Of a stretch of 64,000 nt of DNA, positions 15,702-48,335 are shown piece after piece. Where the stretch lies: positions 9,273,854-9,337,853 of the forward strand of contig CP092869.1 of NCBI GenBank assembly GCA_030710605.1, read 5' to 3'. This stretch comes from Cordylochernes scorpioides. Lineage: Eukaryota > Arthropoda > Arachnida > Pseudoscorpiones > Chernetidae. The translations under genes were made by a program, and so were the position numbers. The notes under the pieces were generated by a model that ran no database searches, was not told the DNA's origin, and worked only from the letters and a program-made list of their open reading frames with translations. Numbering within the stretch: position 1 is the stretch's first letter; each line of letters opens with the position of its first letter.

Positions 15702-15702
15702 A

Positions 15703-20139: not shown

Positions 20140-20999
20140 TGTTGGATCCGTTCTTAGCGTCCCATAAGAACATCCCTCTTCTAATCCTACCTAGCTCAGT
20201 GGACTAAATTCTTTTCTTTTAGCCTATATGTGCAGAAAATGTAACACACGCCAAATGTTTACACCAACTTGTATATCAACTTGGGTTAAAACTCAGATAC
20301 ACACATAATAGGATATAGCGAACACAAAAGATCCATGTTTAATACTTAATATGTAATTTGTTTCAGGGTAAAGGTATCACACATATTTAAAATAATAATA
20401 ACTCAAAAGTTTTATTGTTATCTCAGTGTACAAATCTCAATTATGGGTGATTCTACATGGATAAAATTTATTGTTTAAGGATTTCAAGCAAGAATGAGAT
20501 TTTATACTTATTAGGAACATAAATATGCCTTTCTCTACATATAAAAAACATGCCATAATTGGCAAACCTACCAAATAATACTTAATGAACATAAAATCTA
20601 ATTTCCTTTTAAACTCTAAGGTCTCATACAAAGGGCAAAAAAAATATGAAATTTTCATACCTATCGAAGTAAGTTAAAACATGTCTTTCTGACATATTAA
20701 AGTAAGCTCAAAATTAACAAAGATAAGATGTTAACATACCGTTTCTACTGGATACCAGCGTTCCCAGCGGTCGGCCATTTCGTCCGCGTCCCGTTCAAAA
20801 GCTTGATCAAAACTGGCGTTGTTTTTCAAACAGCGCGCGCGCCCTCAGTGTAAAAAAAAAATTCCTACAGAGTAATAAAACTTATATATAAATATTCTCA
20901 GAATAGTTAAAAATGAATATTATTATTTTAAAAAAATATAGAAAATTTTGGAATAAAATAATAATATTATTTTTTTTTCTTAAAAGAGAAATATCGAAA

Positions 21000-21330
21000 T
21001 AATAAATATAGATGCTTAATCCTTTAAGAAATTTAAAATTCTTCCTTTCTTTTAAAAGAAAAGTTTGAGGTAATAAAAATTGATAAAAATAAGGATAACA
21101 AAATATATAATTTATCTTTAAATTTAAGGTAATTTCTACTTTAGGAAATTCGAAATTAGGCTCCTTCTTATTAGAAGGTTTGAGATAATAATAAAATTGA
21201 TCAAATATAGGGATAATAAAATATAAATTTATTTATTTTAAATTTAAAGTAATTTCTTCTTTAAGAAATTTGAAATCAAACCTCCTCTCTTTAAAAGAGG
21301 GCTTGAGATAATAATAAAATTGATCTGGGT
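21000..21330. repeat. Hairpin-bearing ~115-bp tandem units in the LTR
   Basis: Three consecutive units share TTGAG-TAATAA-AAATTGAT wording. Each contains a local inverted repeat with a different sequence: TTTCTTTTAAAAGAAA, CCTTCT-TATT-AGAAGG and CCTCTCTTTAAAAGAGGG. A second hairpin (AATTTCTT...AAGAAATT and variants) accompanies units 2 and 3. The same arrangement is in the other LTR at about 47040-47375. Confidence 0.65.
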
Positions 21331-21448
21331 ATATAATTAATTGATTTTATTCATTTTAGAATAAAGAATGGACTTGAAATTTCCCTAAAGGCAACATGAT
21401 GTTGGGCGTTTCGTTGCATATAAAGGGTGATTGGCGAATCTATATACA

Positions 21449-22300
21449 GGGCAGGACTCGTGTCATCTCCACCTTTCTGGACTTTAAAGGCATAGGTGCC
21501 ATCTCCCGCTGGGCATCTTCTCCGGCTTCTGGTGTAGATCCTTCGCTGGACCTCTCTGCAATGGGCTCCAGGATCCTTGGGCAGGACTCGTGTCACCTCC
21601 ACCTTTCTGGACTTTAAAGGCATACGTGCCATCTCTCGCTGGGCATCCTCACCGGCTTCTGGTGTAGATCCTTCGCTGGACCTCTCTGCAATGGGCTCCA
21701 GGATCCTTGGGCAGGACTCGTGTCACCTCCACCTTTCTGGACTTTAAAGGCATACGTGCCATCTCTCGCTGGGCATCCTCTCCGGCTTCTGGTGTAGATC
21801 CTTCGCTGGACCTCTCTGCAATGGGCTCCAGGATCCTTGGGCAGTACTCGTGTCACCTCCACCTTTCTGGACTTTAAAGGCATACGTGCCATCTCTCGCT
21901 GGGCATCCTCTCCGGCTTCTGGTGTAGATCCTTCGCTGGACCTCTCTGCAATGGGCCCCCGCATCCTTGGGCAGGACTCGTGTCACCTCCACCTTTCTGG
22001 ACTTTAAAGGCATACGTGCCATCTCTCGCTGGGCATCCTCTCCGGCTTCTGGTGTAGATCCTTCGCTGGACCTCTCTGCAATGGGCTCCAGGATCCTTGG
22101 GCAGGACTCGTGTCACCTCCACCTTTCTGGACTTTAAAGACATACGTGCCATCTCTCGCTGGGCATCCTCTCCGGCTTCTGGTGTAGATCCTTCGCTGGA
22201 CCTCTCTGCAATGGGCTCCAGGATCCTTGGGCAGGACTCGTGTCACCTCCACCTTTCTGGACTTTAAAGGCATAGGTGCCATCTCCCGCTGGGCCTTCCC
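21449..22300. repeat. 130-bp minisatellite, 6.5 copies, in the 3' LTR
   Basis: GGGCAGGACTCGTGTCA recurs at 21449, 21579, 21709, 21839, 21969, 22099 and 22229 (exactly 130 bp apart) with 0-4 changes per unit. 130 is not a multiple of three, so the long - strand frames across it are not a protein. Confidence 0.95.
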
Positions 22301-22558
22301 GGTTTCTGGTGTTCCTCTGGTTCTGTCTGCATCGGGCTTCTGGCTACTTAAACAGGGCCGATGTCATCTTTCTACAGCAGATCTTGGGATACACGTCCAG
22401 GGCTGCGTCCTCCCCTGCCTTGACCCTTAGAACCGTCGGCCATTGTTGTGGGACTTCCATCTGGACAACAAACATTCCGGCAAGACACTGTATATATATA
22501 TATGATGTAAATGTTTACATCTTTGTTGGGTCTGTTTGGTGGAAAATCTGGCCCAACA

Positions 22559-22569: not shown

Positions 22570-23358
22570 GCCAGAGTGAAAGAATGTGTTTATTCTAATT
22601 CATATCTGTTCATACTCTATGAGAAATATGAAATTGGGAGAAATGCATTCTTTTATGATACCAGTATGCAATCACCGACACTCAGGCAAAGGGGGAACAA
22701 ACGGGCCATGGAACCTGGGACAGGTTAACTCATCGTAATAACTGAAGGAAATTCTATCCTACCATTTAATGGGCGAAGTACTAAGCCCATCCTTTCGCTG
22801 TCTGTATTCCAGGGAGTCTTGGCCCAGATGTGAGTCGAATCCACACATTCCCGGCCGCAGTTCCTATGGGTGGAAATGGGGGTGGTATATACACAGATTC
22901 TGTGCAAACAGATTCTTAGACCATTCTGGATAAACATAATAATTACGGGCGCCAAGGAATTGTACGTATAAATGTAGATGTGCCCAATTCCTAAAACACA
23001 TCTAAAAAAAAAACTTTATTAACTCTATATGATACATACGACAGCAAAGGAATGACTATACATGGTCACATAAGATAATGATAATAAAAAAAAACAACTA
23101 AAATTGCAGCTCCTATCAAATGACATCAATAATAGGGCAAACAGAATCGTGGGAAGTGAATATACATATCAAAGTTGAACGGATACGATGTATGCCAAAA
23201 TGGAGCAATGTAGATATACACGATGTTAAATAACAAAATTTTTAAAATGGATATTTACTATAAGTAGAAAGGGAATGGCTTGATATATATATAGGATATA
23301 CTATGGTAAACAAATGAATATATAAATTGTGATTAAATTCTTTGTTCGGTACATTTGT

Positions 23359-23392
23359 CCGAAGATGGTAACAATGCTGCTACCAAAATGTC
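23359..23392 (+). ncRNA. Degenerate hammerhead-like motif 1 in giant element
   Basis: CCGAAGA, stem II-like GGTAAC...GCTACC, then AAAATGTC. Same layout as the Penelope 3' motif at 16887 but with changes in CUGA and GAAA. Probably inactive: a Penelope 3' scrap or a derived copy. Confidence 0.3.
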
Positions 23393-23697
23393 ACACATAT
23401 TAATTATTTGTTCTGGAATCGGTCTCGTTATCTTATCTTTTTTTTTTGTAGTCTATAGCTCAAACTGTGCCTTATCTATATATGAATATACATGCAGATA
23501 ATTAGGGAAAAGTGTAAACATGGTGGATGATACATTAAATGAGTAAATATTACCTCTGTATAATAAATATGCCAAACTTCTTGAAGAATATGATATATGG
23601 GAAGGAAATAACAATGATATGGGAATATATTATGGTAAATAAACAAAACATATATATATATATATGCAGTGGTTAAAACTTGTTTAGTGCATTTTGT

Positions 23698-23732
23698 CTG
23701 AAGATGGTAACAACGCTGCTACCAAAATGTCA
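23698..23732 (+). ncRNA. Degenerate hammerhead-like motif 2 in giant element
   Basis: CTGAAGA, GGTAAC-AACGCT-GCTACC, then AAAATGTC. The CUGA box is intact; GAAA has become AAAA and stem II has a mismatch. It forms a tandem pair with the motif 340 bp upstream. Confidence 0.3.
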
Positions 23733-26700
23733 CACATCTATAATCCGAATCGTGCTTTCTATATATACAAATATACATGAATATAATAAAGGAATGATAC
23801 ATGATATATGGTAATAATGAATATATAATAATAATAAAACGAATAGATATGCACTGAGGGTCTAGGTCATTTCACTAGCATTTCAAAATCTATATGTAAT
23901 ATCTTAAAAACTTGTTCTTACCAGCTCGTCACTGGGAGTGTTTGTCTGGCGTGTTCCCCGCCTCTCTTAATCCAAGAGAAAACCTATAGGAAAGGAAATC
24001 TTGGTAGTCAATACGTCCTTAAACCAGATTATTTCTGAATTACCTTATCTGTGGTGGCAATCTCACCTATCTTTGTTCTTAGCTGAACATTGTTGTTAAC
24101 CTCTACTATACATTGTTTAGCTTATCTATAGAATGTGTACTCATATTTTTGACCAACAAATCCACTTAAAAAAAATTAAATTAACCCTGAAAATAAATTA
24201 TGATGATTAACAACCTAGGTCTAACTTATACCTTATGATATATCTTCCCACTTGAGTTCTTAATATCTCTCTGAAAATTTGACTCTTTGTCCAAAAATAA
24301 AATAGAATAAACTCATTGCTCTGGGCCATTTCATAGCCGAAACAAAAATTTGATATTCCATCCCCCCTTTAAACTTCCCTTTCTTCAAATCTGGAATACT
24401 GGTCTGGCTTGTTCTGGTAATCTGCTTCAAAAGCTCATTTAGGTGTCCTACTGATTAAAAATTTATCTTATCTTATAATGAGTTAGTCTCGTTAAAAAAA
24501 AAAATTCTACTTACTAACTGATATTTAGACTTGAATTCGTTCTAACTAAACGTATGGTAGACTATAGTCTTTAATTAGGTGATTAACTTTTGCTAGCCTG
24601 GGGCGGTATAAAACGCAAAGAATCTGGACAGTCCATCTGTCACTTTGCTAATTGGTACCTAAAATCTGTAGACGGAATCGCCTCGTCTAATCGTAACTTT
24701 GTCTCTTGCACGCTCTCATTGTTAACCCTCATTAGAAACCCCCTTTAGACTTTGACTTAGGGACAAGGAGTTATAGGGACTCTGTTTACCCACCACATGT
24801 TCCAAGCTTTTGTCCATAGAGGATTGGTTCCAGGCTGCGCAATATATAGGAGAGCCTTCAACGTGCCGATCCTTCCCAACCTCCCGTCTGAATCACCCTC
24901 ATCTCAGCCACGCTTAAAGCGTCGTAAACTAGGATGTCAGATCGGTTATCCGAGGTTTGTCGCTGTACACTTAGCTTGCGACATCGGCAACTAAATCCCC
25001 CACCTAGCACAAAGTTCGCCTGATACCTCTCCGTTCCCTCTACTGGGGAGGGGATTTGTAGGCTTTTGGTCTGACCGTGACCTCCCACAATCCCCCAGTC
25101 TGAGAATCGAGACATGGTCATTATCTACGACTCTTAGAATTCAAGTTGATATAATGAAATAGAGAAATTGATTACCCTAATAAAAGAAATCCTACTTATA
25201 CTCCTTTAAAAGGAGTCCTAACAAAAGGGAGCAAATACCTTCCTATCAATAGAGTTGTACAGTCCTGTGAGGCTATCGATCCTAACAAATAAAGAAATCA
25301 AAATTAAAATTGAGCCTGTTAGTTCCCTAACACTATTCTTATGTACCTTTGGTCTAACAGTATAATTGTTTTTAACCTTCTTACACATTCATTAAACCAA
25401 TCCATTCATACACCCTCCCCCCCATCATTCACGGTTTGCATATAAACTAAAGTTAAAAGCTGCTACACAAGCCAAAGTACTATAATTATCATCATCGATA
25501 GACCCTAATAATAACAAATCTTTCAGGACAAATGTGAAATCAAATAAAATATACCTAATTAATACAAATCGGGAACTAAAGCCCTACTTACTCAAATAAA
25601 GTGCCTCTTACAAACTCTAATATAAATTATCTATATTCAAGTAGATAAATAAGTCAAAATATGTTGATTGTCAACAATCAAATCTGAAATCCAACCTATC
25701 ATTAAAACTCTGCGTATAATAGTTTGTAAATCTCCTTCTTATCTTGACACTTGGTGTCTACACAAGATGAACCATCAAAACTAGCACTTAAATTGGAGCG
25801 AATTGAACTTCAAGCATTTACCTCATTGCCAAATATGATAGACCTACAAGTGCTCGCCAACCCTACTTCCCATATAAGGTTATTGGCCTCTTCCCTTCCC
25901 TGCTATTCAGTTGAACCCCTCCTTTGAAATCGTAGGACTTTCAGTACCCACCCGCTCTGGAGTTTAACAACAGGGGCCACTTGTCACCCTATCATATCAA
26001 CTCTTAGACCACAACTGCCTTACACACTCTCATTAGAAATTCTTCTTGGGCTGCGTCCTGGACATAAGGAGTTAGAGGGTGTCAAGTTTTAACCCAGCGC
26101 ATATTCCGAGCCAGCCCATAGAGAATATATTACAAGCACAGCAGATATCTAGTGCGTCTAAGTTCCTTTGTTATTCTTAAAGTTGAACCACTGTTCAGAA
26201 CCTTAAATAAAATTAAAACAAAATATACTGTTGAACTTAAGTCTTAAATCACAACCTGCTATTAATACAGAATAGCATCATCAATAAAAAAAGGAAAAAC
26301 TGAAAACTCCTTACAATGAACATTTAACACAAACACAAGGCTGTAGCCTTAAAAAAAAGAAACTGAAACCCTTTACAATGACACTTAGAATCTACAACCA
26401 TGGTTGTAGCGTAAAAAAAAAATGAAAATTCTTTAAGACCATAATCTAGGGCCTTTAACTCACTTTCTAACACTTCATACTAAGATCAAAATTTAACTAA
26501 ACTCTAGTACACATTCTATAGATTTATTCATTGGCAGCCTGGGCACGATCTACACCCCGTGGGCTTCTTGACCCTGGCTGAACGGCGTATTCCCAGGCCG
26601 CCTACATTGTCCTCAATTACCCCATTCACTATCCCTAGTGGATTTCTTAAGATTGCCGTCTCTTGTGGTTCCTCTGGTTCTACAGGTCTTTGGGAATATA

Positions 26701-26739
26701 TAGGATACGTTGGGTGTACCCAGTGATCTTCATCATTGA

Positions 26740-27733
26740 TGACATCCTAACACTAAAACAAGGTTGTGAAAACCCCTTTCAACGATGAACTAACATTAAA
26801 ACACGGTTGTGAAATTCTTTAAATGATATACTACACAAAGACAAGGTTGTGACAACCCTTAAGAATGAAATACCAACACTAAAACAAGGTCGTGAAAACC
26901 CCTTTCAACGATGAACTAACATTAAAACACGGTTGTGAAATTCTTTAAATGATATACTACACAAAGACAAGGTTGTGACAACCCTTAAAAATGAAATACC
27001 AACACTAAAACAGGTTGTGAGGGCTCTTTATAATGATCCTTTAGAACTAAAGCACATATTGTGGCTTAAAATAAAAAGAAAACTGAAAACTCCTTAAAAT
27101 CATCATAACCTTAGGACAAAAAATGTAGCATAAAATAAAAAGTAAACTGAAAATTCTTTAAAATTCATCATAATACTAAGACAAAACTGTAGCTAAAATT
27201 AAAAAAAATACATAAGGAGGACTGAAAACTCTTTAAGTCGCATCCTAATATTAAAAACAAAGTGTTGTTTAAAAAAAAACTGAGTAACTCTTTAAATTAT
27301 ATACCAACACTAAAACAAGGTTGTAGAAACCCCTTTCAACGATGGACTAACATTAAAACACGGTTGTGAAACTCTTTACAATGACATATAAACACTAAAA
27401 CAGGTTGTGACAACTTTTTAAAGATGACATACAAACACTAAAACAGGTTGTGAGGACTCCTTAAAGATGACACACTAACATTAAAACAGGTTGTGACAAC
27501 CTTTTGAAGATGACATACAAACATTAAAACTTTATTATGATCCTTTAGCACGAAAGCACATATTGTGGCTTAAAATTAAAAGAAAAACTGAAAACTCCTT
27601 AAAATCATCATAACCTTAGGACAAAATTGTAGCATGAAATAAAAAGTAAACTGAAAATTCTTTAAAATTCATCATAATACTAAGACAAAACTGTAGCTTA
27701 AAATAAAAAAAAATACATAAGGAGGACTGAAAC
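26740..27733. repeat. Imperfect tandem repeats in giant element interior (continues 32920-33060)
   Basis: Units built on ACTAAAACAAGGTTGTGA followed by AACCCCTTT or ACTCTTTAAA and ATGA.ATAC, 35-65 bp each. A ~125-bp higher-order unit (26764-26888) is repeated almost exactly at 26889-27012. The BEL element is inserted in this array: the same wording (GAAAACTCTTTAAG..GCATCCTAATATT) continues at 32920. Confidence 0.8.
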
Positions 27734-28204
27734 TGTTGGAAAAGAAGCCGTCCGAAGCAGCCAATGGGAGGCCGGCAGAAACGGCTACGGGGATACAGCG
27801 GCAAAAAATGAGAAAACAATAACAGAAGAACCTGTGGACAACTTTAGTACGTTAGAATTTGCCTGATCTCCGATTCTTTTTGTAAATATTTGAATATTTA
27901 CTTAATTAAATAGTACTTTTTTTTTACTTTTTGTTTCTTGAAAAGGATGGTTGATTTGCATGTCCGCGAGAAGCGCGAGATATAAATATAGGTCAAGATA
28001 ATAATAAAGTGTGTTTTTCTGTTGCTTAGAATCTTTTTGGTGTTATCTTTTAAGCTGGTTCTTGTAGTGAGAGCTCTACAAGTGTGGTGGGCAGCGACAC
28101 CTTAATCTGGACCCTTCAACCCCGCCGACCAGGAATAGAGGTGTGTCTACCTCTATAGAATTTAGATCGTCGCCACAACAAAGAGTGGCGGTGAAATCGC
28201 AATA
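27734..28204 (+). repeat. BEL 5' LTR
   Basis: 471 bp, TGTTGGAAAAG...GAAATCGCAATA. TATAAATA at 27981 and AATAAA at 28003 mark the likely promoter and polyadenylation signals. Confidence 0.9.
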
Positions 28205-28320
28205 TTTTTGGCATCCCAGCCGGGACAGTTGAAGGTAAATTCTAGAAAAAAAGAAAATCATTTTGAGCTGACCATTTTTGGAACTCGCTGGCTAACCCTA
28301 CTTGCTACTCTGTTTACAAG

Positions 28321-30858
28321 ATGGCGGAAGAATTAATTCTACGTTTAAAAAAGAAGCGTGCTATTAAAAGATCACATTTAACGAAAACATGCAATAAGAT
28401 TGAAAGTGGACTTGACACGCTAATGAGAATTGATCTTGAAGAATTATTAGAAATATTGAATGAATCATTTAACGAACTTAAATTAGTGGATCACGAAATA
28501 GAAACGCTTCTTGAAACTGACGATTTAGAGAAGGAATTACAGGGCGTAGAGGAATATCGAGAGAAATATATTACTTGGAGATTTAGGGCGAATAAAAAGA
28601 TTCGCCAATCAGATTTTCATGACGAAAATATACCGAATTCGAACTCACGAATAGATGAAAATGAAATGAGACATTATGTGCCTTCCTGCACGACTGTGAA
28701 ACTTCCGAAATTGATGATATCGAAATTTTATGGAAATTTTAGTGAATGGCTGACGTTCTGGAATTCTTTTGATGCAGCTATACACCAGAACAACTCACTG
28801 AACCCGATCGATAAATTTAATTATCTGAAGTCACATCTCGGCGGAACTGCACTAAACACAGTCGAAGGTTTCGCTTTATCTGCGGACAATTATGAGAAAG
28901 CTATAAAATTGCTTAAAGACAGATTTGGGCGAGAAGACATTTTGATTAGCCGACATATGAACAATTTGTTGTCAATGAGACCACTCAAAGCGTCAAGCGA
29001 TATAAGAACCTTCCGCGAACTTTTTGACAACCTTTCTGTTCAAATAAGAAGTCTCGAGTCATTAAACGTGTCCATTGATGTTTACGGACAACTGTTGTGC
29101 CCGATAATAATAAAGCTTCTACCTGCAGACCTTAATTTGGAATTGAACAAAGAACTCCCGACAGGTTACGTAATTAATGACTTGATTACCTTTCTAGAAA
29201 GACAATTAACTGCACGGGAGAGGAGTTTTGGAAACGAAATCGGTACCGGGAATGAATCAACTTCTAAACCTAATTTGGTAAACAAACATCCAAGGACAAG
29301 ATTCTACAATGAAAAACCAATTGCGACAGCTTCAGAACTTTTGAATTCAGTTCACAAATCGAATGAATGTGTATTTTGTGGTAAAGACAACCATGGAAGC
29401 CCTAAGTGTGACTTTGCAGCTAATATGAGTTTAAACGAAAAGAGATCACTCATGAAGAAAAAAGGCGTTTGTTATAAATGTCTTCGGCCTTCTCATTTAA
29501 GTAAATTTTGCAGAAATGTAGTCCGGTGTTTGATCTGCAACATGTCTTCACACATGGATGTCATGTGCACAAAACGGATTTTAGATCGAGGTGAATCTTC
29601 TAAGTCTTCAACGGTGCAAGATGAAACTCTCACCAACTTAACAACCTCCCCAGACGTCTTGTTGCCTACTTTGAGAGTGACCCTCAAAGGGAATAGAACG
29701 GAGAAGACGGCACGGGCTATAATAGACACCGGATCCCAAAGATCATATATTTTACATAGCACAGCAGTGGAAATGGAATACGAACAATCTAGGAGTGAGT
29801 TCTTCCGGCATTCCTTGTTTGGAGGATCGAGTACCGACGTAGTTGAACATGAGGTCTATACCATTCATTTATCTGACATCAATAATTCCTATCGCTGTGA
29901 GTTTGAAGCACTAGGTCAACCCCTTATCTGTGGAAGCATACCTCCGGTGTGTCCAAGATCATTTTTAGAAGGGAGTGAAGAACTCGATGTGTCTGATTTG
30001 ATGAGAGACCGTATAGAAGTCCTTATAGGCGCGGACATCGCCGGGAGATTGCTAACTGATGATCAGAGAAGAATCTCATCTGGACTGGTGGCAATCCGTA
30101 CCAAACTAGGATGGACTGTGATGGGAAAGATTCCTCCAACGGAGGTGAGAGATGACATCAGCTCCCTTTGCGTGACCACACTTCTATCTTTGGATCTAGA
30201 AAACTTGTGGAAATTAGATGCAATTGGAGTCTCTGACGCGGAGGTTGAGAAGAAGACTCAGTCATTACAAACTGAAATGGAGGAACATTTCGCCCACACC
30301 ACGACGCGAGATATCGAGGGGCGCTATGAGGTAGCTCTACCCTGGGTACAAGACAAGGAAAGGATTCCTTCGAATAGAGACTTAGCCGAAAACCAACTAA
30401 ATTCTGTAAAAAGAAAACTTGAAGAAGTTGGAGACATGAATGACTATGGACAAATCTTTGAAGAATGGATGGAACAGGGGATAATCGAGTATGCCAGAGA
30501 GGATAAACTAGATGGTGTACACTACTTACCACATCGACCAGTGTATAAAAGGAACAGTCAAACTTCTAGAATACGGCCAGTATTTAATGCGTCGGCCCGG
30601 AAGAGAGGTAAACTTTCCCTGAATGACTGTCTGGATAAGGGACCCAATTTGATAGAAATTATACCAAGACTTTTAAATAAATTCCGGAAATATGAAGTTG
30701 GTGTCTCTTCCGATATTGAGAAAGCATTTTTACAAATTGGAATAAAAGAAGAAGACCGAGATTATTTACGATTCCTGTGGCACACAGAAGACGGAAGATT
30801 GATCACGTATCGACATAAAAGGGTTGTTTTTGAATTACCACTAGTCCGTATCTTTTAA
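28321..30858 (+). CDS. BEL gag, protease and RT N-terminus
   Basis: 845 codons from an ATG 116 bp after the LTR. It has an N-terminal coiled region (residues ~1-95), then the gag core with SKFYGNFSEWLTFWNSFDAA (~130-150, typical of BEL/Pao gag). Cys-rich knuckles CVFCGKDNHGSPKC (~349) and VCYKCLRPSHLSKFC (~381) follow. The aspartic protease motif IIDTGSQRSY is at ~465. RT starts near 735: RPVFNASAR, LNDCLDKGPNL and SSDIEKAFLQIGI. The frame fails at about 30830, where the conserved VVFGL block is met, through a 1-base deletion. The rest continues in another frame. Confidence 0.93.
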   Translation: MAEELILRLKKKRAIKRSHLTKTCNKIESGLDTLMRIDLEELLEILNESFNELKLVDHEIETLLETDDLEKELQGVEEYREKYITWRFRANKKIRQSDFHDENIPNSNSRIDENEMRHYVPSCTTVKLPKLMISKFYGNFSEWLTFWNSFDAAIHQNNSLNPIDKFNYLKSHLGGTALNTVEGFALSADNYEKAIKLLKDRFGREDILISRHMNNLLSMRPLKASSDIRTFRELFDNLSVQIRSLESLNVSIDVYGQLLCPIIIKLLPADLNLELNKELPTGYVINDLITFLERQLTARERSFGNEIGTGNESTSKPNLVNKHPRTRFYNEKPIATASELLNSVHKSNECVFCGKDNHGSPKCDFAANMSLNEKRSLMKKKGVCYKCLRPSHLSKFCRNVVRCLICNMSSHMDVMCTKRILDRGESSKSSTVQDETLTNLTTSPDVLLPTLRVTLKGNRTEKTARAIIDTGSQRSYILHSTAVEMEYEQSRSEFFRHSLFGGSSTDVVEHEVYTIHLSDINNSYRCEFEALGQPLICGSIPPVCPRSFLEGSEELDVSDLMRDRIEVLIGADIAGRLLTDDQRRISSGLVAIRTKLGWTVMGKIPPTEVRDDISSLCVTTLLSLDLENLWKLDAIGVSDAEVEKKTQSLQTEMEEHFAHTTTRDIEGRYEVALPWVQDKERIPSNRDLAENQLNSVKRKLEEVGDMNDYGQIFEEWMEQGIIEYAREDKLDGVHYLPHRPVYKRNSQTSRIRPVFNASARKRGKLSLNDCLDKGPNLIEIIPRLLNKFRKYEVGVSSDIEKAFLQIGIKEEDRDYLRFLWHTEDGRLITYRHKRVVFELPLVRIF

Positions 30859-32534: not shown

Positions 32535-32919
32535 CAGAAGAACCTGTGGACAACTTTAGTACGTTAGAATTTGCCTGATCTCCAATTCTTTTTGTAAATA
32601 TTTGAATATTTACTTAATTAAATAGTACTTTATTTTTTTTACTTTTTGTTTCTTGAAAAGGATGGTTGATTTGCATGTCCGCGAGAAGCGCGAGATATAA
32701 ATATAGGTCAAGATAATAATAAAGTGTATTTTTCTGTTGCTTAGAATCTTTTTGGTGTTATCTTTTAAGCTGGTTCTTGTAGTGAGAGCTCTACAAGTGT
32801 GGTGGGCAGCGACACCTTAATCTGGACCCTTCAACCCCGCCGACCAGGAATAGAGGTGTGTCTACCTCTATAGAATTTAGATCGTCGCCACAACAAAGAG
32901 TGGTGGTGAAATCGCAATA
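32446..32919 (+). repeat. BEL 3' LTR
   Basis: 474 bp, partner of 27734-28204. Preceded by a purine tract and by a hairpin GAGTCG...CGACTC at 32411-32431. Confidence 0.9.
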
Positions 32920-33060
32920 GAAACTCTTTAAGTTGCATCCTAATATTAAAAACAAAGTGTTGTTTTAAAAAAAAAACTGAGTAACTCTTTAAATTATATA
33001 CCAACACTAAAACAAAAATTGCAGCCAAAAAAAAAAAAACAAACTGAAAACCCTTTAAGG

Positions 33061-33325
33061 AAATTCTAGCTTCTCAAAGGAGAATACATATTTGTTATTT
33101 AATATAACCTAATATTATAATTAATATAGACCTATGTATATAAATTAGTGTATACAGTTGCTGAAATTTAAGTAAGTCAGCTTATACAAACTTTCGGTGC
33201 ATATTATGTATTATTTACAAATATTGGCCTCTAGTCTAAAACAAATTATCTATCAACACTACGTGGTGAATAGCCAAAATAGTTCTATCGAGGCGATAGT
33301 GCGGTCAACAGCTACGCTTTAAACA
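33061..33325. other. Giant element interior, AT-rich spacer
   Basis: No gene, no repeat beyond the end of the tandem array. Confidence 0.4.
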
Positions 33326-38400: not shown

Positions 38401-38410
38401 AACATGTCAT

Positions 38411-40325
38411 ACGCGAGTGGGTAACGGCGTCCTGTACAAAAAAATATAATAATTTTTACTCAAAAACGAAAAAATGATTGTTCACCATTACTACATACTG
38501 AACAAAAATAAAAAAAATTTACTCGAAAACGATTGTTCATCATTGCTACGCTTTTCTAGATATTAAAACAAAGCTCTTATCAAAACATGAAAATACACAA
38601 AGAAGGCGTATTAAACGTTAAATATTTATATTCTATATTTCACCTTTTATTTTTATTTTATTTTAATTTGTGAATTCGAAATGAATCATGTCTCAATTAT
38701 TTTCTGGCATAACGTTTTTAATAATTCATTCCGTTATATGCAAATATTTTTTATTATAATATATATAAATTCTCAGAGATAATTTCAATTGTATATATGT
38801 AAAAACACCTACCACACCTCTATATATACTGTTGTAATTTGCGAAATTACTTGGCCTGATGATGAGCTAACGCTCGAAAGCTAGCCGTTTTATATTTTAT
38901 ATTAAAGAAACTTTTTGCAATTAATTTGATCGGTTTATTCCTTTTTAATCGTCATTGCAATTATTCCTCAATCTGAAACATTTCTTTGAAATTATACAGA
39001 AAATCGAATAAAAGGCATAAAAATAGCACGCTCGTAAAATATGCAACGGCGTCCTGAACAAAAAATCAAAAAATTTTACTCGAAAACGATTGTTCACCAT
39101 TGCTACGCATTTTTAGATATTAAAACAAAGCTCTTATTAAAACATGAAAATACACTAAGATGGGCGTATTAAACGTTAAACATTTCTTTGAAATTATACA
39201 GAAAATTGAATAAAAGGCATACAATAGCACGTTCGTAAAATATGCAACGGCGTCCTGAACAAAAAATCAAAAAATTTTACTCGAAAACGATTGTTCACCA
39301 TTGCTACGCATTTTTAGATATTAAAACAAAGCTCTTATTAAAACATGAATATACACTAAGATGGGCGTATTAAACGTTAAACATTTCTTTGAAATTATAC
39401 AGAAAATTGAATAAAAGGCATACAATAGCACGTTCGTAAAATATGCAACGGCGTCCTGAACAAAAAATCAAAAAATTTTACTCGAAAACGATTGTTCACC
39501 ATTGCTACGCATTTTTAGATATTAAAACAAAGCTCTTATTAAAACATGAAAATACACTAAGATGGGCGTATTAAACGTTAAACATTTCTTTGAAATTATA
39601 CAGAAAATTGAATAAAAGGCATAAAAATAGCACGTTCGTAAAATATGCAACGGCGCCCTGAACAAAATAAAAAAAATTTTACTCGAAAAGGATTGTTCAT
39701 CATTGCTACGCATTTTTATATATTAAAACAAAGCTCTTATTAAAACATGAATATACACTAAGATGGGCGTATTAAACGTTAAACATTTCTTTGAAATTAT
39801 ACAGAAAATTGAATAAAAGGCATACAATAGCACGTTCGTAAAATATGCAACGGCGTCCTGAACAAAAAATCAAAAAATTTTACTCGAAAACGATTGTTCA
39901 CCATTGCTACGCATTTTTAGATATTAAAACAAAGCTCTTATTAAAACATGAAAATACACTAAGATGGGCGTATTAAACGTTAAACATTTCTTTGAAATTA
40001 TACAGAAAATTGAATAAAAGGCATAAAAATAGCACGTTCGTAAAATATGCAACGGCGCCCTGAACAAAATAAAAAAATTTTACTCGAAAAGGATTGTTCA
40101 TCATTGCTACGCATTTTTATATATTAAAACAAAGCTCTTATTAAAACATGAAAATACACTAAGATGGGCGTATTAAACGTTAAACATTTCTTTGAAATTA
40201 TACAGAAAATTGAATAAAAGGCATAAAAATATCACGCTCGCAAAATATGTAATGGCGTCCTGAACAAAATAAATAAAAAAAATTTACTCGAAAAGGATTG
40301 TTCATCATTACTATGCATTTTTATT
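38411..40325. repeat. ~200-bp satellite-like array next to the primer site
   Basis: The unit contains AACGGCGTCCTGAACA, TTTTACTCGAAAACGATTG, GGGCGTATTAAACGTTAAAC and TTTGAAATTATACAGAAAAT. The first motif recurs at 38423, 39045, 39246, 39446, 39649, 39849, 40050 and 40251 (period 200-203). The first gap is longer because a ~345-bp insert (38628-38972) splits a unit. The array occupies the leader position of the giant element, just after its primer site in - orientation. Confidence 0.92.
38628..38972 (+). mobile_element. 345-bp insert with hammerhead-like core inside the 200-bp array
   Basis: It interrupts one array unit (array sequence breaks at GTTAAATATT and resumes at AAACATTTC). It carries CTGATGA (38856-38862), a stem GAGC-TAAC-GCTC and GAAA (38876-38879), bracketed by GGC and GCC. 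The fixed order CUGAUGA-stem-GAAA is the hammerhead core, but I see no clear UH cleavage triplet. Likely the 3' end of a Penelope-like element or a retrozyme-like sequence. Confidence 0.4.
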
Positions 40326-40420
40326 TTAGGCTTAATGTGAATCCTGGTAGAGCATGATATTTTTTTCATTTCGGGTCGTAGGGTCTACTTCCTGCAAAGT
40401 TGTTTTGCACTTTTCGACAG

Positions 40421-40443
40421 TAACTCGCCCCGCGTGGGCGCCA
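40421..40443 (-). other. Primer binding site of the giant element (tRNA-Lys-like)
   Basis: The - strand reads TGGCGCCCACGCGGGGC, two bases from the LTR edge at 40446. From general knowledge the complement of the metazoan tRNA-Lys(CUU) 3' end is TGGCGCCCAACGTGGGGC. The site differs by one missing base and one transition. It starts with the TGG expected opposite the tRNA CCA end. Confidence 0.7.
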
Positions 40444-40496
40444 AATGTTGGATCCGTTCTTAGCGTCCCATAAGAACATCCCTCTTCTAATCCTAC

Positions 40497-40717
40497 TGTA
40501 GGCGCCATCCCGACCAGAGAGCCACAGATAAACAGATTATAAACGCACAGAATATAGAATCCGAGCTCCCCAGTAGAAGGAATACCCGGAAGACGACGGT
40601 ACTCTCTGTTATATGTGTTGTTCATTATTATGTTTTTGTTTTAATAAACACTACTAAATTATTTCATTGAATCCTCTCTTTCTTTTTCCCAGTAAGAAAC
40701 GCCTACGGAAGCCAACA
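40497..40717 (+). repeat. Gypsy 5' LTR
   Basis: 221 bp. AATAAA at 40643-40648 is a plausible polyadenylation signal. Differs from the 3' LTR only at AAACGCCTACGG against AAATGCCTATGG. Confidence 0.93.
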
Positions 40718-40847
40718 GAAATTCAGAAGTGGGATGGTCCTGAAGAAAATTGAAGATTCACTGGAATAATTTGGAAACGAGAAGGACGTGGCGCGGTGAC
40801 CGATCAAGGAAGAGGAGTTGCATGGTATGTACGAAATTTAATTACCT

Positions 40848-41060
40848 ATTCCTAAAAGTATTATCGCAAAGTATCGCGGTAAAAGTATTATTACAAGTCA
40901 CCTCGACAAAAGTATTATCGCAAAGTATCGCGGTAAAAGTATTATTGCAAGTCATCTCGATAAAAGTATTATCGCAAAGTATCGCGGTAAAAGTATTATT
41001 GCAAAATCATCTCGATAAAAAGTATTATCGCAAAGTATCGCGGTAAAAAAAAAAAAAAAA
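40848..41060 (+). repeat. ~55-bp tandem repeats in Gypsy 5' leader
   Basis: AAAAGTATTATCGCAAAGTATCGCGGT plus a second half AAAAGTATTATTGCAAGTCATCTCGAT occur about four times between the LTR and gag. Each unit is itself a pair of related half-units. The position is analogous to the repeated insulator-protein sites in the Drosophila gypsy leader; the sequence is not the same. Confidence 0.85.
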
Positions 41061-41195
41061 GTATTGTCTCAAAATTACTAAAGAAAAGTTGATTTCGTTT
41101 AAAGAAATAATTGAAACAGTACGTATCTGGTTTAGTCAGTTTTATTTGTTTATTTTAAAATTTTTTTGCTTTGTTTATTTTTCCTTTTGAAAAAC

Positions 41196-44100
41196 ATGAC
41201 TTATTTAGCGAAAGTAAGGAAATGCGATTTGAGCAAGTTGGCGTATGAACTCGGCGAGGTAGTACCGCCAGAGAGCAGGATCGTCGACTTAAAACACCTT
41301 ATTTTGAATAGCCAATCTTACGAAGAAGAGTTCGTAAAGCAACTGTTGGAGACTCTGATCGAGGATCGGGAACGAATCGAGGAGCGGGAACGAATCGAGG
41401 ATCGGAAACGAATCGAGGATCGGGAACGAAAAGAACAAATGGTAATGGAATTCGAGCTTGAGAAGCTGCGCATCCAGACTACACGCGGAAACAACGATAC
41501 GTCTCGAAGTACCAGCAATGACGCACATTACGAGATACGTAAACTGATGCCCAAGTACGAGTCGAAGGACAATGATTTGAGTTTTTACCTAATTCTTTTC
41601 GAAAGACAGGCAAAGCGACTAGGATTGGATGAAGACCAATGGGCGTTCAGCCTCCTAGGATTGCTACCTTACGAAATGACTCAATTAATCGCTCGGGAGA
41701 CAGAAGAACAAAGCGGCGATTATAGGTTCGTGAAAAGGTTGCTCCTAAAACGGTACAAGTTGAGCCCCGAACAATTCAGACAAAAATTCGAGAAGCACGA
41801 GAGATCTCAAAAGGGTTCCTGGAGAGACTTCGCTTTCGAATTGCGAGGATATTTCAACGAATGGATCGAAGGAATGAACGTGGAAAATTTCGACGCCCTA
41901 AAGGATTTGTCCGTCACTAACCAGCTAAAGAAAAAAGTTCCAAATGTGCTGCGTAATCATCTCATTGACGATTGGACCAAGTTAAACAACCCAGATGAGT
42001 TGGCGGATAAACTGGACGAGTACGAAAATGTTCGCACCGAGATGGGACCTCCGCATTGGAATGCGAAACACCTCATACCACCGTCGTTTCAGCAGAAATC
42101 TGCGAGATTCCCCAACCAAAGCGAAGTTAAAGAGACTAAACAAGGAACGAATGTTTCGGGTCAAGACGCTGCAAGGAACGAAATCAGTGAAACGTACCCT
42201 AACACCTTGAGGAGAATGGTCAACCGTACGATCAGAAACGACAAGGGAGAACCGAAGTGCTTCAACTGCAATCAGTTTGGACACATTGCCAGAGACTGCC
42301 CAGCACCCAGGACTACGTTGACATGCCGAGGATGCGGTCAAACGGGACACAAGGAAAGGAATTGCACAAGACCCAAAGAAGGACTAAAAGTAGCCAACCT
42401 GGAAGTCGAAGGACTGGAGACTGTCCCGCCAGATGTATATTTGAAGGATGTCAAGAACGACAACAAGGAAACCGTGAAGGCAATGATAGACACCGGGAGC
42501 AGCAGTTGTCTAATGAGAGAATCGGTCGCAAGGAGGATCAGCGTCGACATCGAACCAGACTCGACTAGTCTGTACGGCATCGGTAACCAGACTGCACCAG
42601 CTGCCAGGACCGTTGGGAAGACGACAGTCGACCTGGAGATTGATGGCATCGTCGGAAGGGAAATCACTGTATTCATTGTCAACGATGATGCCCAACCCTA
42701 TGACCTATTAATTGGAAGAACATGGACAGATCTGCCCTACGTATCCTTCGCCAGAATTGGTAAAAACTTGCATATTGGCTATTCATCCGAATTTCCGTTT
42801 GCTAATCTGCAAGAAGAAATCAAGTCGCGTCGCATCGAACTGAGAGCAACCGAAACTGTTCAGTTGGAGAGCGACTCCATTAACTTTACAAGTGCAATCA
42901 CAGACGAGGTAAAGGACGGATATGTATTGTTCACAGGAGTAGATGACGCCTGTGTCGATTCCCTATTGGAAGTGGTCGATGGAAAGACGACCGTACCCAT
43001 CATCTCAGCTGGCAAGGGCAAGTTGAGAGTAAGGAAGAACCAATGTGTAGGGCGAGTTGAACTACTGAACCTTGATGATATTGTTGTTAACCTGGACGTC
43101 GCAGAGGATTCGTTTCAGACTAAAAATGAAGAGAAGAGGGAAGGACAAGACCAAATGAAACGTAAGCGCCCCATACTGCCTGAGGACATCAACGTCAATC
43201 ATTCTCTGACTTCGAAAGAGAGACAAGAAATCCTAGATGTAGTAAACGAGTATAGAGACTGTTTCGCTCTTGGCATGGAGGAATTAGGGTGCACCGATGT
43301 CACCAAGATGGACATTAAGGAGGTTGATGGAAGCAAGCCAGTCTGTCTGAGACCGTATAAGACGACTGCAAGTGAACGCGAAGCAATCAGGGAGATTGTC
43401 AGAGAGTGGAAGGACAATGGAATAGTCACGGAAACTAGATCACCCTACGCTAGTCCCGTCCTACTTGTGAGGAAGAAAACTGGAGATCATCGTCTGGTGG
43501 TAGATTATAGGAGACTCAACATTCAAACAGTTAAGGACAAGTTCCCATTACCAAGGATAGACGACCTTCTGGAAGGCCTAAGGAATGCGAAATTCTTCAC
43601 CACTCTGGATCTGGCGCATGGATATCTGCAGATACCACTGACCGATAAGGCAAAATTAAAGACAGCATTCATCACCCCAGATGATACAGGTCAATTCGAA
43701 AGGATGATTTTTGGACTCGCCAACGCACCAGCTGAATTCCAAAGACTGATGCACACTGTCCTAGGTCCGCTGCTGAACAAGAAGGCATTCTGCTATCTCG
43801 ACGACGTGATTATCCCGGCAAAGGATTGGCGGGAGATGATCGAAAGGTTGAGGGAAGTCCTCGAAAGAATAAGATCAGCGAAGTTGACACTGAAACCCTC
43901 CAAATGTGAGTTCGGAAGGAGGGAAGTTGAGTTCTTAGGGTATGTCATCAGTACAGGCGGACTTAAGCCAGGCCCAAGAAAGATCAAGGCGATAGAAGAA
44001 TTTCCAGAACCCAAGAATGTCCACGACATACGACGCTTTCTGGGACTGACGAACTTCTTCAGACGATTTGTAAAGGACTTCGCGAGGAAAGCAGAACCGC

Positions 44101-44729
44101 TAAGCAGACTTACGAAGAAAGGTTCACAATTTGAATGGAAGGAAGAACAGCGAAGGTCATTTGGAGGACTACGAAAGGATCTGGTCGAATATCCGGTACT
44201 AGCTCATTACAACCCTGAACTCAAGACAGAAGTACATTGCGATGCGAGTGCTGAGGGATTAGCAGGAATGGTGCTACAGATGGACGAAGACGGCAAATGG
44301 CGCTTGGTCTACTGTGTGAGCAAGAAGACAACAGAGGCCGAGAAGATGTACCACTCAAGCAAATTGGAGCTGATGGCGATAGTGTGGACCTTGGATCGAC
44401 TACGTCAGTTCCTTGTAGGAATCAAGTTTACAGTGGTTACAGATTGCCAAGCACTGGTCTACATGAACGCGAAGAAGACTACAAATCCTCAGATAGCGCG
44501 ATGGTACAATCTGATTCAGGAATACGATTTCGAAATTCGACATAAACCAGGGGAGAAGATGGCCCACGTAGACGGAATGAGTAGAGCTCCAGTCGACGAC
44601 CCTAGAGACACGATGGAGGAAATCGTGGAGAAAAACCTTGAAGTGTGCCTCACAATCACACTGGAAGAACAAATCTTGATGATTCAGCATTCCGACCCTG
44701 AATTGAGAGACCTGATCCAGATCTTTTGA
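41196..44729 (+). CDS. Gypsy gag-protease-RT-RNase H
   Basis: I choose the ATG at 41196 (MTYLAKVRKCDLSKLAYELG) because the upstream open codons lack an ATG and lie in AT-rich leader. A charged repeat RERIEERERIEDRKRIEDRE is at residues ~65-85. The gag core follows, then two CCHC knuckles: CFNCNQFGHIARDC (~354) and CRGCGQTGHKERNC (~378). Protease AMIDTGSSSC is at ~430; RT LDLAHGYLQIPL at ~803 and YLDD at ~866; RNase H EVHCDASAEGL at ~1012; and PQIARWYNLIQEYDFEIRHK near the end. All catalytic motifs look intact. It stops at a TGA (44727-44729) that lies in frame with the integrase. Confidence 0.95.
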   Translation: MTYLAKVRKCDLSKLAYELGEVVPPESRIVDLKHLILNSQSYEEEFVKQLLETLIEDRERIEERERIEDRKRIEDRERKEQMVMEFELEKLRIQTTRGNNDTSRSTSNDAHYEIRKLMPKYESKDNDLSFYLILFERQAKRLGLDEDQWAFSLLGLLPYEMTQLIARETEEQSGDYRFVKRLLLKRYKLSPEQFRQKFEKHERSQKGSWRDFAFELRGYFNEWIEGMNVENFDALKDLSVTNQLKKKVPNVLRNHLIDDWTKLNNPDELADKLDEYENVRTEMGPPHWNAKHLIPPSFQQKSARFPNQSEVKETKQGTNVSGQDAARNEISETYPNTLRRMVNRTIRNDKGEPKCFNCNQFGHIARDCPAPRTTLTCRGCGQTGHKERNCTRPKEGLKVANLEVEGLETVPPDVYLKDVKNDNKETVKAMIDTGSSSCLMRESVARRISVDIEPDSTSLYGIGNQTAPAARTVGKTTVDLEIDGIVGREITVFIVNDDAQPYDLLIGRTWTDLPYVSFARIGKNLHIGYSSEFPFANLQEEIKSRRIELRATETVQLESDSINFTSAITDEVKDGYVLFTGVDDACVDSLLEVVDGKTTVPIISAGKGKLRVRKNQCVGRVELLNLDDIVVNLDVAEDSFQTKNEEKREGQDQMKRKRPILPEDINVNHSLTSKERQEILDVVNEYRDCFALGMEELGCTDVTKMDIKEVDGSKPVCLRPYKTTASEREAIREIVREWKDNGIVTETRSPYASPVLLVRKKTGDHRLVVDYRRLNIQTVKDKFPLPRIDDLLEGLRNAKFFTTLDLAHGYLQIPLTDKAKLKTAFITPDDTGQFERMIFGLANAPAEFQRLMHTVLGPLLNKKAFCYLDDVIIPAKDWREMIERLREVLERIRSAKLTLKPSKCEFGRREVEFLGYVISTGGLKPGPRKIKAIEEFPEPKNVHDIRRFLGLTNFFRRFVKDFARKAEPLSRLTKKGSQFEWKEEQRRSFGGLRKDLVEYPVLAHYNPELKTEVHCDASAEGLAGMVLQMDEDGKWRLVYCVSKKTTEAEKMYHSSKLELMAIVWTLDRLRQFLVGIKFTVVTDCQALVYMNAKKTTNPQIARWYNLIQEYDFEIRHKPGEKMAHVDGMSRAPVDDPRDTMEEIVEKNLEVCLTITLEEQILMIQHSDPELRDLIQIF

Positions 44730-46040
44730 AAGGACCCGTGTGATAGGACAGTAGGAGAACAAAATAGAATTAACGACTACAGCTACAAAGGAGGCAGACT
44801 TTTCCGCATGGTGAAAAATGGAGAAGAGGAACGAGCCCTGTATGTTATACCCAAAAGTATGAGGAAAAGCTTAGTTGTCAAATTCCATGATCTAATGGGA
44901 CATTTTGCGACTGATAGGACTGTCAACAAAATTAAGGAATTGTACTGGTTTCCTTCAATGAAGAGGTACGTTCGACGCCATGTGGCTATGTGTCTCGAGT
45001 GTCTATTTAACAAAGTTCCCGGTGGAAAACAACAAGGCTTCCTACATCCCATTAAGTCAGGCAAGAGACCGTTTTCCATCGTACACATGGACCACGTAGG
45101 CCCCTTCGTGAGAAGTACAAAAGGTAACCAGGAACTTTTAGTGATTGTCGATAATCTGACAAGATTTGTCCGATTAAGCCCTGTAAGGAATACATCGACG
45201 CAGAACGTCCTGAAGGTAATGAAAAGTTTTGTGAATGATTTCAGACTACCCGACAAGATCATCAGCGACAGAGGGTCATGTTTTACCTCAAGGCAATTTG
45301 AAGAATTCTGTCGAGGAAATGGAATACATCATACTCTGAACTCTACGAAACATCCGCAAGGGAACGGGATGGTCGAAAGAGTGAACCGAACAGTATTGTC
45401 CACTATAGCAACCAGTATCGAGGATCCGCGACGGAAGGATTGGGACCTGAAGATCAAGGAGGTAGAGCGAGACCTGAACAATGCGGTGAACAAGACGACG
45501 AATAAAACACCGTTCGAAACACTCCACGGCTATTCCCCTCGATTCCACGATGGGATACTTAGAAGATTAGCCGACGAAGACGTGGACCCATGGACCGAGC
45601 CGGATAGAATTCAAGAGAGTGTGAGAACCCAAATTGAGAATAAACAAGAAATTATGAAGACATACTACGATAAGAAGAAGTGCCGTACAATCCAATTCGA
45701 AGTAGGAGAAATTGTAGTGATGAGGCATGTACCCAAAATGACGGGTGAACCAACCAAGGCACAACCCAAATATCGAGGACCTTTGATAATTACCGAGGTT
45801 CTGCCAAGCGACACGTATAGAGTGACTCAGTTAAGCGAAAGAACCAGTGGACGGTTCTACACGACAACGGCCCATATCAGTCAACTGAAGTCTTGGCACA
45901 GTGAAGAAGATGATTCAGCTACAGAAGAAAGTCCGGACGAGGAGCCAGAAGTAGAAGATACCCCCCGACGCAACCCACGACGTTCCTGCAACGCAAGGTT
46001 CAATCGAGGACGATTGAAATCCAGGAATGGCCGAATGTAG
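44730..46040 (+). CDS. Gypsy integrase
   Basis: Same frame as the gag-RT part, immediately after the TGA. It has the HHCC zinc-binding N-terminus (H...H, then CLEC), the catalytic core with VHMDHVGPF, KIISDRGSCFTS and GNGMVERVNRTV (D, D, E present), and a C-terminal GPY/F-like module KYRGPLIITEVLPSDTYRV. It ends with an acidic then basic tail; the stop codon lies in the 3' LTR. The single TGA is compatible with a CGA-to-TGA transition. Otherwise the element looks functional. Confidence 0.94.
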   Translation, partial: KDPCDRTVGEQNRINDYSYKGGRLFRMVKNGEEERALYVIPKSMRKSLVVKFHDLMGHFATDRTVNKIKELYWFPSMKRYVRRHVAMCLECLFNKVPGGKQQGFLHPIKSGKRPFSIVHMDHVGPFVRSTKGNQELLVIVDNLTRFVRLSPVRNTSTQNVLKVMKSFVNDFRLPDKIISDRGSCFTSRQFEEFCRGNGIHHTLNSTKHPQGNGMVERVNRTVLSTIATSIEDPRRKDWDLKIKEVERDLNNAVNKTTNKTPFETLHGYSPRFHDGILRRLADEDVDPWTEPDRIQESVRTQIENKQEIMKTYYDKKKCRTIQFEVGEIVVMRHVPKMTGEPTKAQPKYRGPLIITEVLPSDTYRVTQLSERTSGRFYTTTAHISQLKSWHSEEDDSATEESPDEEPEVEDTPRRNPRRSCNARFNRGRLKSRNGRM

Positions 46041-46256
46041 GCGCCATCCCGACCAGAGAGCCACAGATAAACAGATTATAAACGCACAGAATATAGAATC
46101 CGAGCTCCCCAGTAGAAGGAATACCCGGAAGACGACGGTACTCTCTGTTATATGTGTTGTTCATTATTATGTTTTTGTTTTAATAAACACTACTAAATTA
46201 TTTCATTGAATCCTCTCTTTCTTTTTCCCAGTAAGAAATGCCTATGGAAGCCAACA
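46036..46256 (+). repeat. Gypsy 3' LTR
   Basis: 221 bp, partner of 40497-40717. Its first bases TGTAG supply the TAG stop codon of pol. Confidence 0.93.
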
Positions 46257-47512
46257 CTACCTAGCTCAGTGGACTAATTTTTTTTCTTTTAGCCTATATG
46301 TGCAGAAAATGTAACACACGCCAAATGCTTACACCAACTTGTATATCAACTTGAGTTAAAACTCAGATACACACATAATAGGATATAGCGAACACAAAAG
46401 ATCCATGTTTAATACTTAATTTGTAATTTGTTTCAGGGTAAAGGTATCACACACATATTTAAAATAATAATAACTCAAAAGTTTTATTGTTATCTCAGTG
46501 TACAAATCTCAATTATGGGTGATTCTACATGGATAAAATTTATTGTTTAAGGATTTCAAGCAAGAATGAGATTTTATACTTATTAGGAACATAAATATGC
46601 CTTTCTCAACATATAAAAAACATGCCATAATTGGCAAACCTACCAAATAATACTTAATGAACATAAAATCTAATTTCCTTTTAAACTCTAAGGTCTCATA
46701 CAAAGGGCAAAAAAAATATGAAATTTTCATACCTATCGAAGTAAGTTAAAACATGTCTTTCTGACATATTAAAGTAAGCTCAAAATTAACAAAGATAAGA
46801 TGTTAACATACCGTTTCTACTGGATACCAGCGTTCCCACCTGTCGGCCATTTCGTCCGCGTCCCGTTCAAAAGCTTGATCAAAACTGGCGTTGTTTTTCA
46901 AACAGCGCCCTCAGTGTAAAAAAAAATTCCTACAGAGTAATAAAACTTATATATAAATATTCTCAGAATAGTTAAAAATAATATTATTATTTAAAAAAAA
47001 AATAGAAAATTTTGGAATAAAATAATAATATTATTTTTTTTTCTTAAAAGAGAAATATCGAAATAATAAATATAGATGCTTAATCCTTTAAGAAATTTAA
47101 AATTCTTCCTTTCTTTTAAAAGAAAAGTTTGAGGTAATAAAAATTGATAAAAATAAGGATAACAAAATATATAATTTATCTTTAAATTTAAGGTAATTTC
47201 TACTTTAGGAAATTCGAAATTAGGCTCCTTCTTATTAGAAGGTTTGAGATAATAATAAAATTGATCAAATATAGGGATAATAAAATATAAATTTATTTAT
47301 TTTAAATTTAAAGTAATTTCTTCTTTAAGAAATTTGAAATCAAACCTCCTCTCTTTAAAAGAGGGCTTGAGATAATAATAAAATTGATCTGGGTATATAA
47401 TTAATTGATTTTATTCATTTTAGAATAAAGAATGGACTTGAAATTTCCCTAAAGGCAACATGATGTTGGGCGTTTCGTTGCATATAAAGGGTGATTGGCG
47501 AATCTATATACA

Positions 47513-48105
47513 GGGCAGGACTCGTGTCATCTCCACCTTTCTGGACTTTAAAGGCATAGGTGCCATCTCCCGCTGGGCATCTTCTCCGGCTTCTGGTGTA
47601 GATCCTTCGCTGGACCTCTCTGCAATGGGCTCCAGGATCCTTGGGCAGGACTCGTGTCACCTCCACCTTTCTGGACTTTAAAGGCATACGTGCCATCTCT
47701 CGCTGGGCATCCTCACCGGCTTCTGGTGTAGATCCTTCGCTGGACCTCTCTGCAATGGGCTCCAGGATCCTTGGGCAGGACTCGTGTCACCTCCACTTTT
47801 CTGGACTTTAAAGGCATACGTGCCATCTCCCGCTGGGCATCCTCACCGGCTTCTGGTGTAGATCCTTCGCTGGACCTCTCTGCAATGGGCTCCAGGATCC
47901 TTGGGCAGGACTCGTGTCACCTCCACTTTTCTGGACTTTAAAGGCATATGTGCCATCTCTCGCTGGGCATCCTCTCCGGCTTCTGGTGTAGATCCTTCGC
48001 TGGACCTCTCTGCAATGGGCTCCAGGATCCTTGGGCAGGACTCGTGTCATCTCCACCTTTCTGGACTTTAAAGGCATAGATGCCATCTCCCGCTGGGCCT
48101 TTCTC
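47513..48105. repeat. 130-bp minisatellite, 4.5 copies, in the 5' LTR
   Basis: Same unit as at 21449, with starts at 47513, 47643, 47773, 47903 and 48033. Two fewer units than the other LTR of the same insertion. Confidence 0.95.
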
Positions 48106-48335
48106 TGGTTCTGTCTGCATCGGGCTTCTGGCTACTTAAACAGGGCCGATGTCATCTTTCTACAGCAGATCTTGGGATACACGTCCAGGGCTGCGTCCTC
48201 CCTGCCTTGACCCTTAGAACCGTCGGCCGATTTCCATCTGGACAACAAACATTCCGGCAAGACACTGTATATATATATATGAAGTAAATGTTTACATCTT
48301 TGTTGGGTCTGTTTGGTGGAAAATCTGGCCCAACA

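Follow-up and report, generated by a model that had tools for sequence, protein, structure and literature searches.

A large non-autonomous LTR element of Cordylochernes scorpioides, probably a gag-pol-less derivative of a giant Ty3/Gypsy family with a putative pre-gag intron

The 64,000-nucleotide stretch of the pseudoscorpion Cordylochernes scorpioides genome analyzed here (GenBank assembly GCA_030710605.1, contig CP092869.1; C7:9273854-9337853, hereafter the window) holds on its minus strand a long terminal repeat (LTR) element spanning 20140-48335. The element has its LTR ends, a tRNA-Lys-like primer site, the leader, the 3' non-coding region and the pol tail in common with a giant Ty3/Gypsy family in this genome. 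Its gag is missing, as is pol except for the last 72 codons, and open gag and open pol places exist elsewhere in the assembly. On these sequence comparisons we regard the element as a gag-pol-less derivative of that family. It is highly probable that it is a non-autonomous element of this origin; it would be mobilized in trans, and its parent may carry a long intron upstream of gag.

Structure of the element and its copies

After subtraction of a nested BEL and a nested Gypsy element, the native length was 17,241 bp and the native interior, by arithmetic, 12,696 bp, in agreement with the approximately 17.2 kb and 12.7 kb of the original prediction, which had been made from the letters alone. 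The LTR ends (TGTTGG/CCAACA), the AAAC target site duplication (TSD), the primer site and the purine tract were likewise located where it had placed them (Table 1). The larger part of the LTR pair differed at 21 of 2075 aligned bases (98.99% identity), with several small gaps besides and a 260-base gap corresponding to two units of a GC-rich 130-bp repeat, present in 6.7 copies at 21449-22312 of the 3' LTR. Joining the flanks with one AAAC gave an open RNase H frame of a long interspersed nuclear element (LINE), as had been claimed for the removal of the element. The frame 48218-48859 at the insertion site matched RNase_H (1e-11), and its nearest named relatives were proteins of C. scorpioides, the best at 86% over 80% of the query.

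Table 1. Features of the element and its nested insertions (positions in the window)
Feature	Position	Strand	Remarks
TSD AAAC, left copy	20136..20139
3' LTR of the minus-strand element	20140..22558	-	2419 bp
Polypurine tract GGCAGGGGAGGAA	22560..22572	-	one base from the LTR
3' non-coding region	22573..26527	-	common to autonomous relatives
Last 72 codons and stop of Ty3/Gypsy pol (integrase tail)	26528..26746	-	codons 26531-26746
Tandem-repeat array where gag-pol is missing	26747..27733	-
Nested BEL/Pao element	27734..32919	+	TSD GAAAC at 27729-27733 and 32920-32924
5' part of putative pre-gag intron	32925..37961	-	array remainder ~32925-33060, then intron body
40-codon frame within putative intron	36209..36328	-	starts MADQGTRPATDFQS
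Putative splice donor GAAAAG^GTCAGT	37956..37967	-	exon end 37962, intron from 37961
3' part of leader exon 1	37962..38348	-	79.2% to L049, where the block directly precedes gag
Leader 201-bp tandem array	38423..40323	-	apparent insert at ~38607-38975
Leader adjoining primer site	40324..40426	-	40363-40446 85.9% identical to L049
Primer binding site TGGCGCCCACGCGGGGC	40427..40443	-	tRNA-Lys-like, 2 nt from the LTR
5' LTR, inner end	40446..40496	-	51 bases, identical to 20140-20190
Nested Ty3/Gypsy element within 5' LTR	40497..46256	+	TSD CTAC
5' LTR, remainder	46261..48335	-	130-bp repeats at 47513-48098, 4.5 copies
TSD AAAC, right copy	48336..48339

The primer site scored 13 against what we take to be the end of tRNA-Lys(CUU), the next best among nine tRNAs scoring 8, and the assignment was strengthened by a family member (L019) matching the same presumed end at 18 of 18 bases. 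Five other copies showed a one-base variant of the site (two), an insertion within it (two) or no site at the guessed place (one). The core of the purine tract recurred at the same site in six other reads, representing five further copies.

Direct LTRs with a TSD, a primer site and purine tract beside them, and a large interior without functional protein genes are the features of a large retrotransposon derivative (LARD), and the interior was also conserved among dispersed copies. The native length of 17,241 bp is far from the very small size of a terminal-repeat retrotransposon in miniature (TRIM). The predicted LARD-like, non-autonomous minus-strand element with nested BEL and Gypsy insertions, dependent on the proteins of a partner, fits these findings. 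The statement that it has "no protein-coding genes of its own" held for functional genes, but the 72-codon pol C-terminus remains as the sole coding remnant recognized in the interior. None of the 90 interior frames of at least 45 aa matched Pfam at E<=0.01, two weak matches (E 0.05-0.08) falling short of this cut-off. A search of the interior for host RNA in Rfam returned three weak matches at E<=1, all under the gathering score, and the predicted proteins of the LTR repeat used as the copy-search query gave six candidates, none of them significant.

Across the 2.62-Gb assembly, 40 of 2481 first-look candidates were scored for the LTR query, yielding 89 matches, and 40 of 3530 for the interior query 24000-26730, yielding 53; the long interior matches showed 86-99% identity, and short pieces went down to 72%. 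Eight other copies were 90-99% identical to the 3' region 22573-26527 over 4.0-4.3 kb. Other copies with both LTRs, whose absence from the genome had been named as fatal to the prediction, were found as two clean pairs and one complex case, each with its own 4-bp TSD. The gutted copies on C3 (15.2 kb, TSD GGTT) and C19 (14.7 kb, TSD ATTT) had LTR divergences of 0.63% and 1.21%, respectively, and no frame of at least 150 aa was detected in the four stretches covering them, a scan that frames across the stretch cuts would escape. The third case lies near 36.2 Mb on C7, where GTTG stood beside both outer LTRs (divergence 1.28%), which were approximately 51 kb apart with an extra LTR match and a LINE frame between them. 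A separate locus, L020 (C5:43061000-43070900), was an LTR without interior, with the TSD TATA, within a series of units approximately 3.4 kb apart.

The array met the pol tail at the identical place in 16 of 23 non-window rows, representing 14 distinct copies, and for this reason the gag-pol deletion most likely happened once and was then amplified. Of the remaining rows, four continued into pol sequence (L034, L036, L040 and L051), one began there (L050), one held other DNA (L028) and one was a chance match elsewhere (L013). The lack of functional genes and the nested insertions that break this copy would also suit a dying relic, namely a long-decayed Gypsy copy keeping only its ends and leader and belonging to no mobile derivative family. 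This is quite improbable in view of the same gag-pol-less layout on C3 and C19, with low LTR divergence and separate TSDs, and of the common junction.

A 99% identical inverted sister lay about 0.3 Mb away, at C7 ~8969456-8984595 (L022, L029 and L041), with the same BEL at the same place, which points either to a segmental duplication that followed the insertion of the BEL or to a duplication in the assembly. The sister lends some weight to the idea that an assembly or segmental duplication merely mimics two LTRs in the window. The empty site restored with one AAAC, the primer site, the purine tract and the other copies with different TSDs make that idea scarcely credible, and the separate TSDs also speak against the copies being segmental duplicates of one insertion.

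The autonomous family and a partly gutted copy

The 72-codon pol tail was matched in all 150 scored places (2010 candidates), where the frame measured at most 90 aa in 78, at least 200 aa in 48 and at least 800 aa in seven. The start of gag was also matched in all 150 scored places (560 candidates), with a frame of at least 300 aa in 96. The tail formed the C-terminus of a Gypsy integrase in L036, L040, L049/L050 and L051, and in autonomous copies the frame was open upstream. The original prediction had proposed a search for an autonomous relative, and such relatives were identified as copies bearing gag and pol on the common leader, primer site and 3' region. At L049/L050 on C8, the LTR end GGATCCAACA was followed by TT, the primer site, a leader 86% like that of the element, a block 79% like 37959-38348, gag, pol, part of the common 3' region at 87% and LTR sequence. 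The stretch 23898-26738 was 86.9% identical to L050 over 2895 columns, the rest of the region being absent from L050. The pol of L049 showed the Ty3/Gypsy order of reverse transcriptase, RNase H and integrase, of which the element keeps the tail only, and the L049/L050 tail was 81% identical to that of the element. Among the 7996 scored candidates sharing most words with the N-terminal half of the L049 pol protein, the seven most similar public predicted proteins (64-89%) were all from Cordylochernes; outside this genus identity was mostly 30-39% for the longer matches and 45-47% for two short ones.

Another copy, L051 on C23, contained leader-array pieces, an intron-like part, the array and then a 451-aa frame with integrase, and lacked gag and reverse transcriptase in the stretch read. 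It appears to be a partly gutted intermediate. The parent of a LARD is often uncertain. As parent, intermediate and derivative lie in one assembly, the origin of this LARD can be traced base by base.

Because the ends, the primer site and the leader are shared with the autonomous family, movement of the element by the enzymes of its autonomous relatives is likely. RNA initiated in the LTR would enter particles made by autonomous copies, where tRNA-Lys would prime the packaged RNA and the enzymes of these copies would reverse-transcribe and integrate it.

LARDs as such are already known; the present case adds a sequence-identified parent, an intermediate copy and the putative intron before gag. 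The element resembles the cereal LARDs, for example of barley, and rice Dasheng, which are described as large LTR elements without functional enzymes, presumed to be moved by others (PMC3281118). It differs from them in its animal host, in a parent found in the same genome, in the 72-codon pol tail and in the partial putative intron. The predicted rarity of such an element in animals stood as to its size, but a LARD class is tabulated for the honey bee, in a row that we interpret as 301 elements and 7.26 Mb (PMC4028053), and planarian Burro elements exceed 30 kb (PMC6431247). The honey bee LARDs are also from an arthropod, but form an automatic class omitted from the manual inspection of that paper, and its passages on them describe neither a parent nor a splice architecture. 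Burro and plant Ogre are giant Gypsy elements like the present family, but both are coding, unlike the element, and Ogre splices between its open reading frames.

The putative intron upstream of gag

The leader exon end was recovered (score >110) in nine non-window loci. In eight of these GT came next, and in the ninth, L049, that base was joined to ATCCAACA, the leader block ending in GAAAAG and continuing directly into ATCCAACAACTGAGGACCATG of gag. The donor read GT(C/T)(A/G)GT in the element and the eight further copies, with GAAAG^GTTAGT in L014. In the autonomous copy L052 on C16, the sequence before gag read CCCGTAG^ATTCAACA. A diverged leader block, whose score of 82 compares with at most 42 among 300 shuffles, ended in AAAG^GTGGGT 7763 bp upstream of this proposed acceptor. 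The interval held homologues of parts of the 33.6-36.7 kb region of the element. Furthermore, the public gene model P0133, an automatic prediction, places the exon sequence IQQLRTM just before the start of gag. The long pre-gag stretch seems to recur in the family, because a MADQG block was located 4.1-11.9 kb upstream on the same strand at 16 of 150 gag places and at none in each of three control arrangements (2-15 kb). The lists paired here were the scored parts, 150 of 560 for gag and 150 of 603 for MADQG, and three of the 16 pairs resembled local duplicates on C7. We infer, with less certainty than the family relationship, that the parent family carries a pre-gag GT-AG intron, of 7763 bp in the single copy measured. 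The element retains the donor and approximately 5 kb after it, the acceptor and gag being gone.

Two other assignments were considered and dropped. The sequence TTTTAGTGTTAG, where the array ends next to the pol tail, was not retained as a splice acceptor, as L009, L011, L026 and L027 lacked AG directly there. The approximately 6 kb between leader and pol tail was not retained as unrelated replacement DNA, as parts of it precede the gag of the autonomous copy L052.

Several observations weigh against this interpretation of the parent and its intron. The spliced state is seen in L049 only, and this locus is composite, as the two LTRs flanking it are mismatched and a purine tract precedes its 5' LTR. 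The putative donor has a pyrimidine at position +3 in the element and eight other loci (GTCAGT, GTTAGT and GTCGGT), although not in L052 (GTGGGT), and several AGs lie upstream of the proposed acceptor. No primer site was found in L052/L053. The LTR similarity between the element and L049/L050 is patchy, at about 90% over 197 and 146 columns (U3 end), 81% over 176 columns inside and 83% over 64 columns at the other end.

The composite nature of the sole intronless locus also favors an explanation with the same family and parent, in which the pre-gag stretch is a long leader gained or lost by recombination and absent from L049. LTR elements recombine often, and L051 has kept integrase without gag and reverse transcriptase in the stretch read. 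However, the breakpoint in L049 coincides exactly with GT...AG (given the customary two-base AG ambiguity), the eight further copies conserve the donor, L052 has donor and acceptor at a measured distance, and P0133 agrees, though automatic. We consider the recombined leader unlikely on balance.

Retroelement RNA doubles as messenger and genome. If the intron is real, splicing would set the fate of the parent RNA, unspliced RNA serving as the genome and spliced RNA as the gag-pol messenger. Since the derivative has kept the donor and lost the acceptor and gag, its RNA would undergo no messenger splicing at the known site and would all stay genomic and packageable, a state that would suit a parasite. 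We propose tentatively, with slightly more doubt than belief, that in an animal Ty3/Gypsy family a multi-kilobase intron wholly upstream of gag keeps genomic and messenger RNA apart, and that a derivative keeping the packaging leader and the donor, without the acceptor, parasitizes this family. If the intron is true, the family would offer a natural test of the division of RNA between translation and packaging.

A working precedent for such parasitism comes from barley, where BARE2, lacking Gag, is reported to parasitize BARE1, its RNA still being packaged with the splice signals missing (PMC3735527). As described there, gag-less copies exploit an autonomous relative without splicing, as proposed here. 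The barley pair differs in being Copia rather than Gypsy and in the BARE1 intron, which is 104 nt long and inside the gag frame; the deletion described for BARE2 removes the gag start codon, whereas the element is without gag-pol. For Cer1, intron-bearing genomic RNA is reported to require escape from nuclear retention (PMC10309623). According to the 2005 Diaspora paper, neither retroviruses nor LTR retrotransposons, Ogre included, had by then been reported to have a pre-gag intron (PMC1142308), and a search of titles and abstract openings, with most subscription papers outside its scope, found no report of one.

Interior details, nested insertions and neighboring features

The claim of a recent integration held only in a relative sense, as the LTR divergence was 1.01% for the host element, 1.5% for the nested BEL and 0.9% for the nested Gypsy. 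At L037 on C20, the Gypsy that is nested in the window recurs (99.2% over 954 bp), bordering another family copy and apparently lying inside it.

L012 and L014 carry the 201-bp leader array as well, and L051 has pieces of it. When the interior was compared with itself, tandem arrays appeared, along with a pair of dispersed units near 23.3-23.7 kb and a single diverged duplicate (~81 bp) surrounding an ATGGCGG motif. The two dispersed units, of ~90 bp each at 23308-23741, match dispersed repeats at 16855-16965 and 58154-58249, the former close to a frame (15691-16731) that was named Penelope-like GIY-YIG by eye and has no Pfam match. The 170-aa frame at 33323-33835 was longer than any in 100 of 100 shuffles, but pyrimidines predominate there and we interpret it as low complexity. 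With 150 of 603 candidates scored, the frame 36209-36328 was stop-free in many of the more diverged copies. A second, diverged copy of it lies near 36.78-36.86 kb, and by eye its start resembles that of gag at the N-terminus.

Elsewhere in the window, the minus strand carries Copia pol frames at 8532-10976 (474 and 339 aa, each open) and an open mariner-type transposase frame of 330 aa at 59403-60395. A tRNA gene at 61093-61168, also on the minus strand, was called Ile with the anticodon GAT (Rfam tRNA, 54 bits), an anticodon unusual for tRNA-Ile in an animal nuclear genome.

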